DNA of 64,000 nt, taken from positions 62,001 through 126,000 of the forward strand of contig NZ_JBEPSD010000003.1 in the NCBI RefSeq assembly GCF_040548735.1. Reading direction: 5' to 3'. The translations under genes and the position numbers were made by a program. This document shows, one piece after another, positions 44,114 to 49,503 of the stretch. Every line of letters begins with the position of its first letter. Position 1 is the stretch's first letter. The stretch is from Rhodanobacter soli. Its GTDB lineage: Bacteria; Pseudomonadota; Gammaproteobacteria; Xanthomonadales; Rhodanobacteraceae. A model generated the notes under the pieces. That model was not told the origin of the DNA. It worked only from the letters and a program-made list of their open reading frames with translations, and ran no database searches.

Positions 44114-45127
44114 TCAGCCCGGAAACGCCCGCGCCAGCCAGTCCGGCACCGGGATGCCTTTCCCGCGCAGGAAGGCCGGGTTGAACAGCTTGGCCTGGTA
44201 GCGCGTGCCGGCGTCGGCGAGCACCGTGACGATGGTGCGGCCGGGGCCGAGTTCGCGCGCCAGGCGGATCGCGCCGGCGAGGTTGACGCCGCTGGAGCCG
44301 CCGGTGCACCAGCCTTCCTCGGCCAGCAGGCGATGCAGCAGCGGCACCGACTCGTCGTCGGGAATCGACCAGGCCAGGTCGATCGGTGCGCCGTCGAAAT
44401 TCGCGGTGACCCGGCTGGAGCCGATGCCTTCGCTGATCGAGTTGCCGCTGGCGACCAACTCGCCGGTGTTGACGTAGCTGGCCAGTGCCGAGCCTTCCGG
44501 GTCGGCCAGCGCGATGCGCACGCCGGGGTGGCGTGCCTTCAACGCGCGGCCGACGCCGGCCAGGGTGCCGCCGGTGCCGGCGGCGCAGACGAAGCCGTCG
44601 ACGTGGCCGCCGGCGTCCTGCCAGATCTCCCCGCCGGTGGTGGCTTCGTGCCAGTCGCGGTTGGCGGTGTTGTCGAACTGGTTGGCGAACCACGCGCTGC
44701 CCGGATCGGCGGCATTCGCCGCCTCGGCGTGGGCGCGGGCCTGGTGCGCGTAGTGGTTCGGGTCCTTGTACGCCACCGCGGGCACCAGCCGCACTTCGGC
44801 GCCGGCGATGCGCAGCGCGTCGATCTTCTCGCGGCTCTGCGTCTCCGGCATGAAGATCACCGTGCGATAGCCGCGGCTGGCGCCGAGCAGGGCCAGCCCG
44901 ATCCCGGTGTTGCCGGCGGTGCCCTCGACGATGCTGCCGCCGGGGCGGATCAGCCCGCGCCGCTCGGCATCCAGCAGCAGGCCCAACGCGGTGCGGTCCT
45001 TGATCGAGCCGCCGGGATTGAGGAACTCGGCCTTGCCCAGGATCTCGCAGCCGGTCAGCGCGGAGGCGTGGCGCAGGCGCAGCAGCGGCGTATGGCCGAT
45101 GGCGGCGGAGAGGTCGGGGATGCTCAT
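44114..45127 (-). CDS. Cysteine synthase-family PLP enzyme
   Basis: PLP-dependent beta-family enzyme of 337 residues, O-acylserine sulfhydrylase/cysteine synthase type. The Schiff-base Lys is in NPGGSIKDRTA (about residue 44); the substrate loop is EGTAGNTGIGLA; the phosphate cup is AAGTGGTLAG; and SGVNLAGA is near the C-terminus. It likely joins sulfide to an activated serine. It resembles CysK/CysM, but which donor (O-acetyl, O-phospho or O-succinyl-serine) is not readable. The ATG at 45127 is chosen because the N-terminal extension of the open frame is Glu/Pro-rich leader sequence. It sits downstream of a 1-Cys peroxiredoxin and divergent to the methionine operon. Confidence 0.88.
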   Translation of the reverse strand: MSIPDLSAAIGHTPLLRLRHASALTGCEILGKAEFLNPGGSIKDRTALGLLLDAERRGLIRPGGSIVEGTAGNTGIGLALLGASRGYRTVIFMPETQSREKIDALRIAGAEVRLVPAVAYKDPNHYAHQARAHAEAANAADPGSAWFANQFDNTANRDWHEATTGGEIWQDAGGHVDGFVCAAGTGGTLAGVGRALKARHPGVRIALADPEGSALASYVNTGELVASGNSISEGIGSSRVTANFDGAPIDLAWSIPDDESVPLLHRLLAEEGWCTGGSSGVNLAGAIRLARELGPGRTIVTVLADAGTRYQAKLFNPAFLRGKGIPVPDWLARAFPG

Positions 45128-45160
45128 GGGCGAAGGTTCGGGAGAGGGATGTCGATTCTG

Positions 45161-45194
45161 CTCCTCCCCCTGCAAGCAGGGGAGGGAGCAAGGC
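45161..45194. repeat. Dispersed palindromic repeat, copy 1
   Basis: CTCCTCCCCCTGC and GCAGGGGAGGGAGC flank a two-base centre, followed by AAGGC. It lies in the 68-bp gap between the peroxiredoxin and cysteine synthase genes. A closely similar element is at 59332-59365, and related arms occur at 55950-56060. Confidence 0.7.
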
Positions 45195-45195
45195 G

Positions 45196-45831
45196 TCAGG
45201 CCAGTGGCGCCGGCACCAGCCGCAGGTACGACTTCAGCGTCCTCCAGCCGCCGGGGTAGAGCTTCTTCGCGTCGTCGTCGGAGACCGAGGGCGCGATGAT
45301 CACGTCGTCGCCGGGCTGCCAGTCCACCGGGGTGGTCAGCTTGCGGCCGTCGGTGAGCTGCAGCGAGTCGAGCACGCGCAGCACCTCGTCGACGTTGCGC
45401 CCGGCGCTGGGCGGGTAGGTGAGGATCAGCCGCACCTTGCGGTTCGGGTCGATGATGAAGACCGAACGCACGGTGACCTTGGGATCAGCCTTGGGATGGA
45501 ACATGCCGTACAGCTTCGCCACTTCCAGCGCCGGGTCGGCCAGCAGCGGGTAGTTCAGCGCGGTGCCGCCGACGTCCGCGACGTCCTTGGCCCAGCCCTG
45601 GTGGTCGGCCACCGAATCCACCGACAGGCCGAGCAGCCGCGCGTTGCGCGCATCGAACTCGGCCTTGCGGCTGGCGAACGCGCCGAGCTCGGTGGTGCAC
45701 ACCGGGGTGAAGTCCTTCGGGTGCGAGAAGAACACCACCCACTGCCCGCCGGCGTAGTCGTGGAAGCGGATCGGTCCTTCGGTGGAGTCGAGAGTGAAGT
45801 CGGGGGCGGTGTCGCCCAGTTGCAGGCTCAT
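45196..45831 (-). CDS. 1-Cys peroxiredoxin (Prx6 type)
   Basis: Thiol peroxidase reducing hydrogen peroxide and alkyl hydroperoxides. The 211-residue length and C-terminal extension match the Prx6/1-Cys group. The peroxidatic Cys is in DFTPVCTTELGAF (about residue 45). The VRSVFIIDPNRKVRL and TYPPSAGRNVDEVLRVLDSLQL segments are typical. No resolving Cys is seen in the usual typical-2-Cys position (VCP motif absent). The ATG at 45831 is preceded by GGAGA. The divergent intergenic region is shared with the methionine operon, so its promoter may overlap the met-box-like sites. Confidence 0.92.
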   Translation of the reverse strand: MSLQLGDTAPDFTLDSTEGPIRFHDYAGGQWVVFFSHPKDFTPVCTTELGAFASRKAEFDARNARLLGLSVDSVADHQGWAKDVADVGGTALNYPLLADPALEVAKLYGMFHPKADPKVTVRSVFIIDPNRKVRLILTYPPSAGRNVDEVLRVLDSLQLTDGRKLTTPVDWQPGDDVIIAPSVSDDDAKKLYPGGWRTLKSYLRLVPAPLA

Positions 45832-45912: not shown

Positions 45913-45936
45913 ATACGCCTAGACGTTTAGACGTCT
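45913..45936 (+). promoter_or_regulatory. Tandem met-box-like operator
   Basis: Octamers AGACGTTT (45921-45928) and AGACGTCT (45929-45936) are contiguous; the second is a perfect match and the first is 7/8 to the MetJ met-box consensus AGACGTCT. A weaker third, ATACGCCT (45913-45920), matches 6/8. The array ends 1 bp before the -35 hexamer. MetJ is best known from enteric and related gammaproteobacteria, so the protein that binds here is uncertain. Confidence 0.6.
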
Positions 45937-45937
45937 A

Positions 45938-45966
45938 TTGACATGACGCCATGGAGCATTCAATAT
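45938..45966 (+). promoter_or_regulatory. Promoter of the metX-metB-hom operon
   Basis: A perfect -35 TTGACA (45938-45943) and a -10 CAATAT (45961-45966) are separated by 17 bp. Predicted transcription start is near 45973, just before the P1 helix of the SAM-I riboswitch. Confidence 0.75.
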
Positions 45967-45974
45967 CCGCTCCA

Positions 45975-46086
45975 CTCATCGAGACCGGCTGAGGGACAGG
46001 CCCTTTGAAGCCGGGGCAACCTGCGGAGCGTTTCCGCCACGGTGCCAACTCCTGCGGAGGTGCTTCGGCATCCACCGGAAGATGGG
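45975..46086 (+). promoter_or_regulatory. SAM-I (S-box) riboswitch aptamer
   Basis: P1 is CTCATC (45975-45980) with GATGGG (46081-46086). Between them lie the core blocks GAGGGACAGGCCC, TTTGAAGCC, GGGGCAACC, GGTGCCAACTCCTGCGG and GGAAGATG, in the conserved order of the S-box class. A following hairpin, CTTTCCGGTC (46134-46143) with GACCGGAGAG (46161-46170), covers the metX Shine-Dalgarno GGAGAG, suggesting translational control. SAM binding is expected to lower metX-metB-hom expression. Confidence 0.93.
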
Positions 46087-46176
46087 CGTCATCCGGCTTG
46101 CGGCGGTCTGCCGCCGAATCCGGGGTTGGCGGCCTTTCCGGTCCTTCGCGGGGCGATGCCGACCGGAGAGAGTTCC

Positions 46177-47199
46177 ATGACGTTCCTGCCCGAAACCCGC
46201 TGCACCGAAGCCGGCCAGGCCGCCTTTGCCGTTCTTCCCGAGCCGTGCGTGCGGTTGACCGCCCAGCGCAGCACGCGCCGGTTGCGGCTCAGCCCGAAGT
46301 ACGGCAGCGGCCCGCGCGAGGTCGAAGTGAGCTACCTGTGGTGCGGTGCGGCGGGTGGGCCCACCGTGATTGTGCAGGGCGGCATCTCGGCCGACCGCGA
46401 CGTCACCGCGCTGGACGGCGACGCCGCACCGGGCTGGTGGCAGGCGCTGGTCGGCAGCGGCGCGGCGGTCGACCTCGAGCGCTGGCGCGTGCTGGCGATC
46501 GACTGGCTCACCCCGGACCAGCTCGGCGCCGGGTCGGTGTCCAGCGAGGACCAGGCCGACGCACTGGCTGCGCTGCTGGGCGAACTGGGCATCGCGCAGG
46601 CACACGCTTTCATCGGTTCGTCCTATGGCGCGATGGTGGCGCTGGCGTTCGCCGCACGGCATCCGCGCAGCGTCGAGCGCCTGCTGCTGCTGGCCGGCGC
46701 GCACCGGCCGCATCCGCTCAGCACCGCGCAGCGCAGCGTGCAGCGCGGCATCGTGCGGTTGGGCCAGGCCAGCGGCCAGGCCGACGAGGCGCTGGCATTG
46801 GCGCGCCAGCTGGCGATCACCACCTACCGCGGCAGCGCCGAGTTCGGCCGGCGTTTCGCCGGCGGCCCGGAATGGCGCGAGGAGCGTTTCCATTTCCCGG
46901 TCGAGGACTACCTGGCGCATCAGGGCCGCCGTTTCGTCGAACGCTTCGACGCGGACCGCTTCCTCGCACTGTCCGAGTCGATCGACCTGCACGACATCAA
47001 GCCCGAGCGGATTCCCACCCCGGCCACGCTGATCGGCTTCCCCTCCGACCGGCTGGTGCCGCTGGCCGACCTGTGCGAGCTGCAGCGCCGCCTGCATGGT
47101 CCGGCCACGTTGGAAGTGGTCGAGTCGCCGTACGGCCATGACGCTTTCCTGAAAGAACCCGAACAGCTCGCGCCGCTGCTGCGCGAAGCGCTGGCCTGA
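46177..47199 (+). CDS. metX: MetX-family homoserine (or serine) O-acyltransferase
   Basis: Alpha/beta-hydrolase-fold acyltransferase of 340 residues that activates homoserine by acylation, first step of methionine synthesis. Landmarks: IVQGGISADRDV near residue 65, nucleophile elbow GSSYGAMVALAFAARHP, and catalytic Asp/His in PSDRLVPL and YGHDAFL. In Xanthomonadales, MetX-family proteins can use succinyl-CoA, and some act on serine; sequence alone does not settle donor or acceptor. The open frame extends to 46042, but that would be encoded in the riboswitch; the ATG at 46177 with GGAGAG upstream is the start. First gene of a methionine operon with metB and hom. Confidence 0.9.
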   Translation: MTFLPETRCTEAGQAAFAVLPEPCVRLTAQRSTRRLRLSPKYGSGPREVEVSYLWCGAAGGPTVIVQGGISADRDVTALDGDAAPGWWQALVGSGAAVDLERWRVLAIDWLTPDQLGAGSVSSEDQADALAALLGELGIAQAHAFIGSSYGAMVALAFAARHPRSVERLLLLAGAHRPHPLSTAQRSVQRGIVRLGQASGQADEALALARQLAITTYRGSAEFGRRFAGGPEWREERFHFPVEDYLAHQGRRFVERFDADRFLALSESIDLHDIKPERIPTPATLIGFPSDRLVPLADLCELQRRLHGPATLEVVESPYGHDAFLKEPEQLAPLLREALA

Positions 47200-47236: not shown

Positions 47237-48424
47237 ATGACCGAGCCCGCCCCCTGTACCCGCGCCGTGCGCGCCGGGATCGAGAGCGACACGCAGCACG
47301 GCGCCGTGGTGCCTGCGCTGCACCTGTCGACCAACTACAGCTTCGCGGGCTTCGGCCGCAAGCGCGCGTACGACTACTCGCGCAGCGGCAATCCCACCCG
47401 CGACCTGCTCGGCGATGCACTGGCGGAACTGGAGCAGGGCGTTGGCGCGGTGGTGACCTCCAGCGGCATGTCGGCCGTGGCGCTGGCGCTGGAACTGGTG
47501 CCGGCCGGAGCCACCGTGCTGGCGGCGCACGACTGCTACGGCGGCACCTGGCGGCTGCTCGACGCGTGGGCGAAGAAGGGCCGCTTCCAGGTCGAGTTCG
47601 CCGACCTCACCGACAGCGTGGCGCTGGCCGCCGGCCTGGCGCGCAAGCCTGCGCTGGTGTGGGTGGAGACGCCGTCCAATCCGCTGCTGCGGATCACCGA
47701 CATCCGCCATGTGGCGCAGGCCGCGCACGCGGTGGGCGCCTTGCTGGTGGTTGACAACACCTTCCTGTCGCCGGCGCTGCAGCAGCCGCTGTTGCTCGGC
47801 GCCGACGTGGTGGTGCACTCCACCACCAAGTACATCAACGGCCACAGCGACGTGGTGGGTGGCGCGGCGGTGGCGCGCGATGCGGCAGTGGCCGAGCAGC
47901 TGAAGTGGTGGGCCAACTGCAACGGCCTCACCGGCGCGCCGTTCGACAGCTACCTCACCCTGCGCGGCCTGCGCACGCTCGGCGTGCGGCTGCGCCAGCA
48001 CCAGGAGAACGCCGCGCGCATCGCCGGACAGCTGGACGCGCACGCGGCCGTGCGCAAGGTCTACTACCCCGGCCTGGCCGGCCATCCCGGCCATGCGCTG
48101 GCGGCGCGCCAGCAGCAGGGTTTCGGCGCGATGCTGAGCTTCGAGCTGGACGGCGACGTGGCGCAGATCGAGGCGTTCGTCGACGGCCTCGAATACTTCT
48201 CGCTGGCCGAGTCGCTGGGCGGGGTGGAAAGCCTGATCGCGCACCCGGCCACCATGACCCACGCGTCGATGGCGCCGGAGGCGCGCCGCACCGCCGGCAT
48301 CGCCGACAGCCTGCTGCGCCTGTCGGTAGGCATCGAGGACGGCGACGACCTGCTGCGCGACCTCGACGCGGCGCTGGCCCGCGCCGCGGCCGTAGGGACG
48401 TCCAAACGCCGGGTGCTCGCATGA
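47237..48424 (+). CDS. metB: Cystathionine gamma-synthase-family PLP enzyme
   Basis: PLP enzyme of the Cys/Met metabolism family, 395 residues. Substrate/PLP landmarks: YDYSRSGNPTRDLL (about residue 48), SSGMSAVALAL, VDNTFLSPALQQPLLLGADVVVHSTTKYINGHSD with the PLP-binding Lys, and LAESLGGVESLIAHPATMTHA. These match cystathionine gamma-synthase/O-acylhomoserine sulfhydrylase. By position after metX it should condense O-acylhomoserine with cysteine or sulfide. A CGGAGA ribosome-binding site precedes the ATG. Its TGA stop overlaps the hom ATG (ATGA), indicating coupled translation. Confidence 0.92.
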   Translation: MTEPAPCTRAVRAGIESDTQHGAVVPALHLSTNYSFAGFGRKRAYDYSRSGNPTRDLLGDALAELEQGVGAVVTSSGMSAVALALELVPAGATVLAAHDCYGGTWRLLDAWAKKGRFQVEFADLTDSVALAAGLARKPALVWVETPSNPLLRITDIRHVAQAAHAVGALLVVDNTFLSPALQQPLLLGADVVVHSTTKYINGHSDVVGGAAVARDAAVAEQLKWWANCNGLTGAPFDSYLTLRGLRTLGVRLRQHQENAARIAGQLDAHAAVRKVYYPGLAGHPGHALAARQQQGFGAMLSFELDGDVAQIEAFVDGLEYFSLAESLGGVESLIAHPATMTHASMAPEARRTAGIADSLLRLSVGIEDGDDLLRDLDAALARAAAVGTSKRRVLA

Positions 48425-49503
48425 GCGTGGTGCTGGCCGAACGCGCGGCGAGCGCCAGGAGCGAAGCGTCCTCCACCATCGCGATCGTGCTGCTCGGCAC
48501 CGGCGTGGTCGGCGGCGCGCTGCTGAAGCTGCTCAACACCTCCGCCGCGGGTTCGCTGCGGCTGGTCGGCGCGGCGAACTCGCGCCGCCAGCAGACCGAT
48601 CCGGTCAGCCTGGCCCAGCGCAACCTGCGCGAACAGCTGAACCAGCACGGTGCCCCGCGCGACAACGCCAGCCTGCTCGCGGCGCTGGACGACAGCGCCG
48701 CGGCGACGAAGGTGATCATCGACGCCACCGCCAGCGCGGCGCTGGCGTCGCGCCATGCCGAGTGGCTGGCACGCGGCTATCACGTGGTCACTGCGAACAA
48801 GGCGCTGGCCGGCGGCGAGCTGTCCGGCTGGCGTGCGTTGCAGGCCGCGCTGGCCGGCGGCGCTCGCTACGGCGATTCGGCCACCGTCGGCGCCGGCTTG
48901 CCGGTGCTGTCCACCTTGCGCCGCCTGCGCACCTGCGGCGACGGCCTGCTCACGCTGGAAGGCGTGTTTTCCGGTTCGCTGTCGTGGCTGTTCAACCAGT
49001 ACGACGGCAGCCGCCCGTTCTCCGAGCTGCTGCGCGAGGCGCGCCAGTTCGGTTATACCGAACCCGACCCGCGCTCGGACCTGTCCGGCGAGGACGTGGC
49101 GCGCAAGCTGCTGATCATCGCGCGCAACGCCGGTTTCGCCTTGGGCACCGACGAGGTGCAGGTGGATGGCCTGGTGCCCGAGTCGCTGCGCGCGCTCACC
49201 ACCGAAGCGTTCCTGGCGCGGCTGGAGGAACTCGACGCGCCGCTGGCCGCACGCCATGCGCAGGCCAGCTCGCGCGGCTGCGTGCTGCGTTTCCTGGCGC
49301 GGCTCAACCAGCGCGGGCATGCCCGCGTCGGCCTGGTCGAAGTGCCGCTCACCCATCCCGCCGCGCGGCTGTACGGCACCGACAACCAGTTCGCGCTCAC
49401 CACCACCCGTTACCACGCCCAGCCGCTGGTGATCCAGGGCCCGGGCGCGGGACCGGAGGTGACCGCGCAGGCGCTGCTGGGCGACGTGCTGGCGCTGGCC
49501 TGA
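48421..49503 (+). CDS. hom: Homoserine dehydrogenase
   Basis: NAD(P)-dependent oxidoreductase reducing aspartate semialdehyde to homoserine. The 360-residue protein has the Rossmann motif VLLGTGVVGGALLKLL (about residues 23-38), HVVTANKALAGG, the substrate region GDSATVGAGLPVLSTLRRL, VFSGSLSWLFNQYDG, YTEPDPRSDLSGEDVARKLLIIAR and a C-terminal GPGAGPEVTAQALLGDVL. It lacks the N-terminal aspartokinase of ThrA/MetL and has no C-terminal ACT domain, so it is probably not feedback-controlled by threonine the usual way. The ATG at 48421 overlaps the metB stop by ATGA. Third gene of the SAM-controlled operon, supplying homoserine for MetX. Confidence 0.93.
   Translation: MSVVLAERAASARSEASSTIAIVLLGTGVVGGALLKLLNTSAAGSLRLVGAANSRRQQTDPVSLAQRNLREQLNQHGAPRDNASLLAALDDSAAATKVIIDATASAALASRHAEWLARGYHVVTANKALAGGELSGWRALQAALAGGARYGDSATVGAGLPVLSTLRRLRTCGDGLLTLEGVFSGSLSWLFNQYDGSRPFSELLREARQFGYTEPDPRSDLSGEDVARKLLIIARNAGFALGTDEVQVDGLVPESLRALTTEAFLARLEELDAPLAARHAQASSRGCVLRFLARLNQRGHARVGLVEVPLTHPAARLYGTDNQFALTTTRYHAQPLVIQGPGAGPEVTAQALLGDVLALA

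Follow-up and report, generated by a model that had tools for sequence, protein, structure and literature searches.

Met boxes and a SAM-I riboswitch are stacked on the methionine operon in every sampled member of the Rhodanobacteraceae

The metX-metB-hom operon of Rhodanobacter soli raises the question of why two sensors of the same metabolite should be kept on one operon, and which protein would be the first of them. A preliminary description of the locus had proposed that SAM is read twice, by a protein at initiation and by an RNA after initiation, and it had suspected that the protein might be something other than MetJ. The window, i.e., the whole stretch of DNA that was analysed, comprises 64,000 nucleotides (C3:62001-126000). 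The following features were found on the plus strand:

45913..45936, plus strand: predicted MetJ operator of three contiguous met-box octamers, ATACGCCT (45913-45920), AGACGTTT (45921-45928) and AGACGTCT (45929-45936), from sequence and conservation
45938..45943, plus strand: -35 element TTGACA, separated from the operator by one A (1 bp)
45961..45966, plus strand: putative -10 element CAATAT, after a 17-bp spacer
45973..46088, plus strand: SAM-I (S-box) riboswitch aptamer, RF00162, 81 bits, full-length
46134..46170, plus strand: possible expression platform hairpin, CTTTCCGGTC (46134-46143) paired with GACCGGAGAG (46161-46170), from a fold of 46089-46190
46165..46172, plus strand: probable Shine-Dalgarno sequence GGAGAGAG of metX, from sequence
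46177..47199, plus strand: metX, homoserine O-succinyltransferase type, NF006449 355 bits (cut-off 296), start ATG at 46177
47237..48424, plus strand: metB, cystathionine gamma-synthase, TIGR02080 597 bits (cut-off 504.55)
48421..49503, plus strand: hom, homoserine dehydrogenase, PF00742 and PF03447, frame checked

Two or three contiguous octamers had been noticed 1 bp before TTGACA, and re-reading by coordinate verified that there are three; they are identical to the MetJ box AGACGTCT at 6, 7 and 8 of 8 positions, respectively. CAATAT was likewise found 17 bp after TTGACA. It agrees with TATAAT at 3 of 6 positions, and because of this weak match to the consensus a simple promoter scan gave no listing here. 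The aptamer said to be stacked behind the promoter matched positions 1-108 of the 108 positions of its model with 81 bits, against a gathering score of 44.4, and no other place in the genome matched SAM-I. Its start lies approximately where transcription should begin, judged from the promoter elements, and from its family it would be expected to bind SAM. Downstream of the aptamer the gene order is metX-metB-hom, and the start of hom was placed by the ATGA overlap with the metB stop. A peroxiredoxin gene, followed by a cysteine synthase-like gene (44114-45831, minus strand), is oriented divergently to the met operon at about 80 bp from the operator, and an operator in this position could act in both directions.

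Single octamers with at most one mismatch occurred 7 times in the window, compared with 16 expected matches (not significant). A single box is thus no commoner than chance, but the tandem arrangement was found in all 76 sampled relatives, and chance octamers were ruled out. The preliminary description had made its proposal depend on the conservation of the octamers in related promoters. When up to 3 mismatches in 16 positions were allowed, a pair of met boxes was present upstream of SAM-I in 76 of 76 sampled Rhodanobacteraceae from 22 genera (0 mismatches in 2, 1 in 23, 2 in 40 and 3 in 11 of them), and at least two contiguous octamers, each with at most 2 mismatches, were present in 74 of the 76. 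At the same threshold the pair was detected in none of 1,520 shuffled upstream regions, in none of the 76 stretches of coding sequence taken from these loci, and upstream of SAM-I in none of 20 genomes of the Xanthomonadaceae (best 7 mismatches). It was also absent upstream of 15 further aptamers, one from the Xanthomonadaceae and the remaining 14 from other families within the order; the promoters of the Xanthomonadaceae were thus 20 hand-picked ones and one more, out of 74 genomes of that family with SAM-I, a number counted by eye. When each of the 22 genera was represented by a single genome, the mean information was 0.92 bit per column in the three octamers, 0.09 in the 35 bases upstream and 0.10 in the promoter spacer. 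The -35 element begins with TTGAC in 76 of 76 members (TTGACA in 59, TTGACG in 15, TTGACT in 2), the 1-bp gap between the octamers and TTGAC is kept in 65, and the position of the -10 hexamer is also conserved, with an A at position 2 in 59 and a T at position 6 in 61.

Taken together, all sampled Rhodanobacteraceae have the met operon behind a stack of MetJ boxes and SAM-I. That any genome with MetJ and SAM-I stacks them was ruled out by one genome (G113), which encodes MetJ and has two SAM-I aptamers, neither of them with met boxes within 150 nt. The stack combines known parts in a new way, and its strong conservation suggests a function. Among the matches listed in the open literature, to which the search was confined, no description was found of the stack or of the MetJ-histone fusion treated below, and the open literature searched gave no mention of a SAM riboswitch in Rhodanobacter.

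The genome has one metJ and also a SamR-like ArsR-methyltransferase gene before metH. The MetJ domain is encoded at C3:57801-58055, about 4 kb before the start of the window. It matched PF01340 with an E value of 7e-35 (118.9 bits, cut-off 25), passed the NCBI equivalog NF003622 (124.9 bits, cut-off 110) and gave an 84-residue alignment with 1cma, the structure of the E. coli repressor (E 3e-31). The sequence RKITVSIPL of this MetJ aligns with KKITVSIPL of 1cma, the conserved DNA-reading strand of MetJ with K23 and T25. In addition, the segment EAFLHAFTGQPLP is identical to that of E. coli, which would be compatible with SAM binding and SAM-dependent DNA binding. Several positions differ from E. 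coli MetJ, including E39, which is replaced by L, and R42, which is replaced by H; many other family members keep both. The E. coli-type C-terminal segment after residue 80 or so is absent, and a Lys/Ala-rich tail takes its place in all 58 MetJ proteins of the family that were examined.

Of 233 Rhodanobacteraceae genomes, 227 gave a MetJ match (226 of them above the curated cut-off), with all 26 genera represented, and the six genomes without a match are 79-93% complete. Among the 299 genomes of the order, 96 had MetJ and 217 had SAM-I, and the same 76 Rhodanobacteraceae genomes are contained in both sets. None of the 74 Xanthomonadaceae genomes with SAM-I (counted by eye) had MetJ. A regulator matching the octamers is thus encoded, which the earlier proposal had likewise required, and the suspicion against MetJ was not borne out. 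That doubt was reasonable, because the survey of Leyn 2014 lists none in four Xanthomonadales genomes (PMC4239095). The only record of MetJ with Rhodanobacter in the open literature searched was a proteomics study of strain R12, in which MetJ was up and four methionine enzymes were down with nitrate, a correlation with nitrate and not with SAM (PMC12146267). For MetJ in Dyella, Luteibacter or Rhodanobacteraceae, there was no literature among the matches listed.

Met boxes were also detected upstream of metJ. In this genome the pair is GGACGTATGGACGTCC at C3:57617. The metJ genes examined were 58 from the 76 sampled Rhodanobacteraceae genomes, this one included, and 46 of them have a pair at -195 to -160 that deviates at no more than 5 of 16 positions. 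In the shuffle control, 86 of 1,160 sequences reached 5 mismatches or fewer anywhere in 300 nt. Such a pair was lacking in 12 of the 58 genes, i.e., in all 10 of the Luteibacter group and in 2 others. In the whole genome, the pattern RGACGTHYRGACGTHY occurred without mismatch at 13 places (two overlapping matches merged), 5 of them before genes, one between convergent genes and 7 inside predicted coding frames. With 7 of 13 places in coding frames, the tandem motif alone is therefore not specific. The five upstream places belong to the met operon, metJ, a TonB receptor, cysG/cysB and a gene before glnK-amtB, and of these only the met operon and metJ are backed by conservation; at the cysG/cysB and glnK places, longer mechanical frames were overridden by the choice of later start codons. 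One pair lies between cysG, which encodes siroheme synthase, and the divergent gene of a LysR regulator of the CysB type (L006, C1:316329), and it might connect MetJ with sulfur assimilation. Another, AGACGTATAGACGTCT, is situated just before the TonB-dependent receptor gene (L004, C3:186553). The match of that gene to a B12-receptor model is far below the cut-off (65.6 versus 599.7 bits), and its identity as btuB is therefore a guess. No known RNA family was found in the six loci of other candidate sites.

The output of the leader was approached by folding. The hairpin at 46134..46170 covers most of the metX ribosome-binding site, and the fold from which it was taken is no more stable than shuffles (z -0.4). 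Folding of the full leader did not yield a clear aptamer state, and the structure was again no more stable than shuffles (z -1.2). Among the relatives, the ribosome-binding site was paired more than in shuffled leaders in 63 of the 74 Rhodanobacteraceae measured; 2 of the 76 leaders had been dropped, as no start codon was found. No terminator-like site was present on the plus strand between 45800 and 46300, and a terminator platform was ruled out, the sole terminator-like match being on the minus strand inside the met boxes. The predicted sequestration of the metX ribosome-binding site fits translational control, short of proof.

It is probable, with a likelihood of about 0.8, that metX-metB-hom is under dual control by MetJ at the promoter and then by SAM-I in the message, both reading SAM. 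When SAM is plentiful, adjacent SAM-loaded MetJ dimers would occupy the three met boxes, right next to the -35 element, and would block RNA polymerase. Transcripts that escape MetJ would carry the SAM-I aptamer from about their first nucleotide, and SAM on the aptamer would keep the metX ribosome-binding site closed, so that the control in the leader would probably be translational and would operate without a terminator. When SAM falls, both locks would open. The double reading of one metabolite is favoured by the comparative evidence; MetJ binding, its SAM dependence, repression and the coupling of the aptamer to the ribosome-binding site are predictions from sequence. What the data show directly is that the sequence elements exist and are conserved, that MetJ is encoded and that boxes precede most of the metJ genes examined. 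The tested riboswitch in the homologous leader of X. campestris (PMC7270179) and the R12 proteomics, although the latter is a correlation with nitrate, also speak for dual control. Counted against it are the X. campestris promoter that did not respond to methionine (see below), the genome G113 without stacking, the 12 metJ genes without such a pair of boxes, the changes at E39 and R42, and the low specificity of the motif.

An unlikely alternative is that the met boxes are bound and play a minor role, with the riboswitch exerting nearly all SAM control and MetJ acting only at extreme SAM excess. Support comes from X. campestris, for which PMC6230763 reports that the promoter did not respond to methionine and the 5′ leader did; promoter fragments of 52 and 109 bp had similar activity with and without methionine. 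Xanthomonas species among the surveyed loci have a palindrome in place of the met boxes (see below), X. campestris itself not being among these loci; its promoter is nevertheless a caution that an operator can be conserved in this slot and yet have little effect under certain conditions. The loss of the E. coli-type C-terminal segment points in the same direction. However, the information content of the octamers over 22 genera next to flanks that are near random suggests ongoing selection, and MetJ is nearly universal in the family, both of which speak against a minor role.

The tail of MetJ led to a further alternative. The MetJ of this genome runs in frame into a Lys/Ala-rich, histone-like tail (L001:1492-2022, C3, about 4 kb before the window), and none of 13 MetJ loci of another family (f9) has such a tail. 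The tail could make MetJ a nucleoid-type protein, for which the boxes would nucleate local silencing with reduced SAM specificity. This would be in line with the tail being found throughout the family and not in the other one, and with the matches of the tail of this genome to HC2/H1-like models, which are below the cut-offs of these models. Yet the MetJ domain is still close to E. coli MetJ and the operators are still met-box-like, and we regard such a change of function as improbable. No mention of MetJ with a histone H1-like protein was found in the open literature searched.

In the Xanthomonadaceae, a separate Lys/Ala-rich frame with its own ATG was found 0.7-1.3 kb downstream of gcvH at 11 of 11 loci (L340-L350; 10 Xanthomonadaceae genomes and Xanthomonas cissicola, with two frames running off the locus), and no MetJ motif was detected in any of these 11 gcvH loci. 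In this genome, gcvH precedes metJ, too. The term H1-like rests mostly on composition, as one of five separate Xanthomonadaceae proteins passes the Pfam model HC2 (56.6 versus a cut-off of 40) and four match nothing. At the junction of MetJ and tail, 57 of 58 genes have retained an ATG. It is preceded by two GAG codons, found in 57 and 58 of 58 genes, compared with 96 GAG among 205 Glu codons elsewhere in the genes, and by AGA in 55 of 58, a codon that accounts for 11 of 545 Arg codons in the rest of these genes. In the separate genes, CGAGGA precedes the ATG in 11 of 11 and GAGGAG in 9 of 11 cases, and therefore both families have the same ribosome-binding-like letters and the same start codon. 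Inside metJ, the ribosome-binding sequence GAYGAGGAG also encodes Asp-Glu-Glu. Judged from these letters, an internal start within metJ would be the likeliest reason for their being kept. It is tempting to speculate that metJ has two products, a MetJ-histone hybrid that responds to SAM and an H1-like protein on its own, by which SAM would tune chromatin-like silencing. This reading gains weight from GACGAGGA, which also precedes the start codon of the separate genes, and it is offered tentatively, at somewhat less than even odds.

The slot of the met boxes is occupied differently in the sister family Xanthomonadaceae, of which Xanthomonas, Stenotrophomonas and Lysobacter were sampled. Their promoters have a palindrome of 24 bp, ATCnCTnnATnnnnATnnAGnGAT, at the place of the met boxes and next to the same -35 element. 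For SamR, Leyn 2014 describes a 24-bp palindrome and a predicted regulon that includes metB, metX2 and hom and also metK and metF (PMC4239095), and we infer that the palindrome is this SamR site. At least 120 named public loci have TTGACA followed by SAM-I, a count that is no census. Among the matches listed, met boxes were present in 36 and the palindrome in 74, whereas 10 loci had neither motif and no locus had both; 2,400 shuffles of these loci contained neither motif. Of the 36 listed met-box loci, 30 carry the name of the Rhodanobacteraceae or of one of its genera, and the other 6 belong to assemblies with loose names, one of which reads Lysobacteraceae. The 74 palindrome loci listed include no Rhodanobacteraceae name. 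A record titled Bacillus subtilis SK7B5 (L190) has a Stenotrophomonas-like promoter and SAM-I start and therefore looks mislabelled or contaminated. Several Gemmatimonadetes assemblies (L184, L218, L223, L227, L255, L268, L269) have TTGACA at a similar distance before SAM-I and neither type of operator.

The window promoter thus has met boxes where SamR-type operons have the palindrome before the -35 element. Elsewhere in this genome, palindromes of the SamR type were found with 1, 2 and 2 mismatches, respectively, of 14 fixed letters:

C1:543678: SamR-type near-palindrome at the ArsR-methyltransferase gene with metH (samR-metH, L288)
C1:1141484: SamR-type near-palindrome at metK (L289)
C1:1163276: SamR-type near-palindrome at metF (L290)

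Two more with 2 mismatches lie in other gene contexts (5 places in total with at most 2 mismatches), and a reversed control pattern had no matches in the genome. SamR and MetJ therefore seem to be used in parallel by this genome. From the near-palindromes at samR-metH, metK and metF it follows that SamR-type control probably remains elsewhere, and that the met operon has changed hands. That another regulator, such as the SamR-like protein encoded before metH, binds the octamers is highly improbable, since its likely sites are the palindromes near its own gene, metK and metF, which are unlike the octamers, and none of the 120 public loci among the matches listed has both motifs. With MetJ found in the genome, a regulator other than MetJ was dropped as first choice.

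With a SamR-type palindrome in the MetJ slot of the Xanthomonadaceae, the repressor has been exchanged and the riboswitch kept; repressor plus riboswitch is therefore a conserved layout with an exchangeable repressor. As for metJ in Xanthomonas, PMC6230763 states that it is missing in X. campestris, and the introduction of PMC7270179 describes the E. coli MetJ/MetR system as seemingly conserved in many Gram-negatives including Xanthomonas. The present searches agree with the former. No literature on MetJ in Lysobacter, Xanthomonas or Stenotrophomonas was among the matches listed.

Several known systems resemble parts of this arrangement. With the gammaproteobacterial MetJ regulon of E. coli, Vibrio and the Pasteurellales it shares the MetJ domain, tandem AGACGTCT-like promoter operators and boxes before most metJ genes examined, but here the target also has a SAM-I leader and MetJ has a Lys/Ala-rich tail. 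The SAM-I riboswitch of X. campestris (SAM-I Xcc) has been tested as a SAM-responsive translational riboswitch that also binds initiator tRNA (PMC7270179); operon and riboswitch class are the same here, no terminator was seen, and the Shine-Dalgarno sequence may likewise be hidden. Unlike X. campestris, for which metJ is reported missing (PMC6230763), R. soli has metJ. The SamR regulon predicted in Xanthomonadales (PMC4239095) has 24-bp palindromes similar to those near samR-metH, metK and metF here, whereas the met operon slot of the Rhodanobacteraceae has met boxes. At btuB of Yersinia, met boxes lie at the start of a cobalamin-riboswitch leader, and PMC3228920 reports that the operator is functional; the two layers read SAM and cobalamin there, whereas both would read SAM here. 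For hom-metXC of Oceanicaulis, a protein and a riboswitch are also predicted on one methionine operon (PMC4239095), but these are SahR and a SAM_alpha riboswitch, and one genome is named.

The results extend MetJ to an order in which the regulon survey of Leyn 2014 recorded none (PMC4239095), and they reveal a repressor joined to a histone-like tail in the Rhodanobacteraceae. If metJ were indeed a two-product gene, SAM would tune chromatin-like silencing at the met boxes and the met operon, whose leader would then read SAM again. The two sister families, with the same riboswitch and -35 element and different operators, offer a ready test of how a repressor can be exchanged without the loss of control. 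The Rhodanobacteraceae thus provide a natural example, spread over a whole family, of an operon that is probably controlled by one metabolite through both a repressor and a riboswitch, and this example poses the question of why both are kept.
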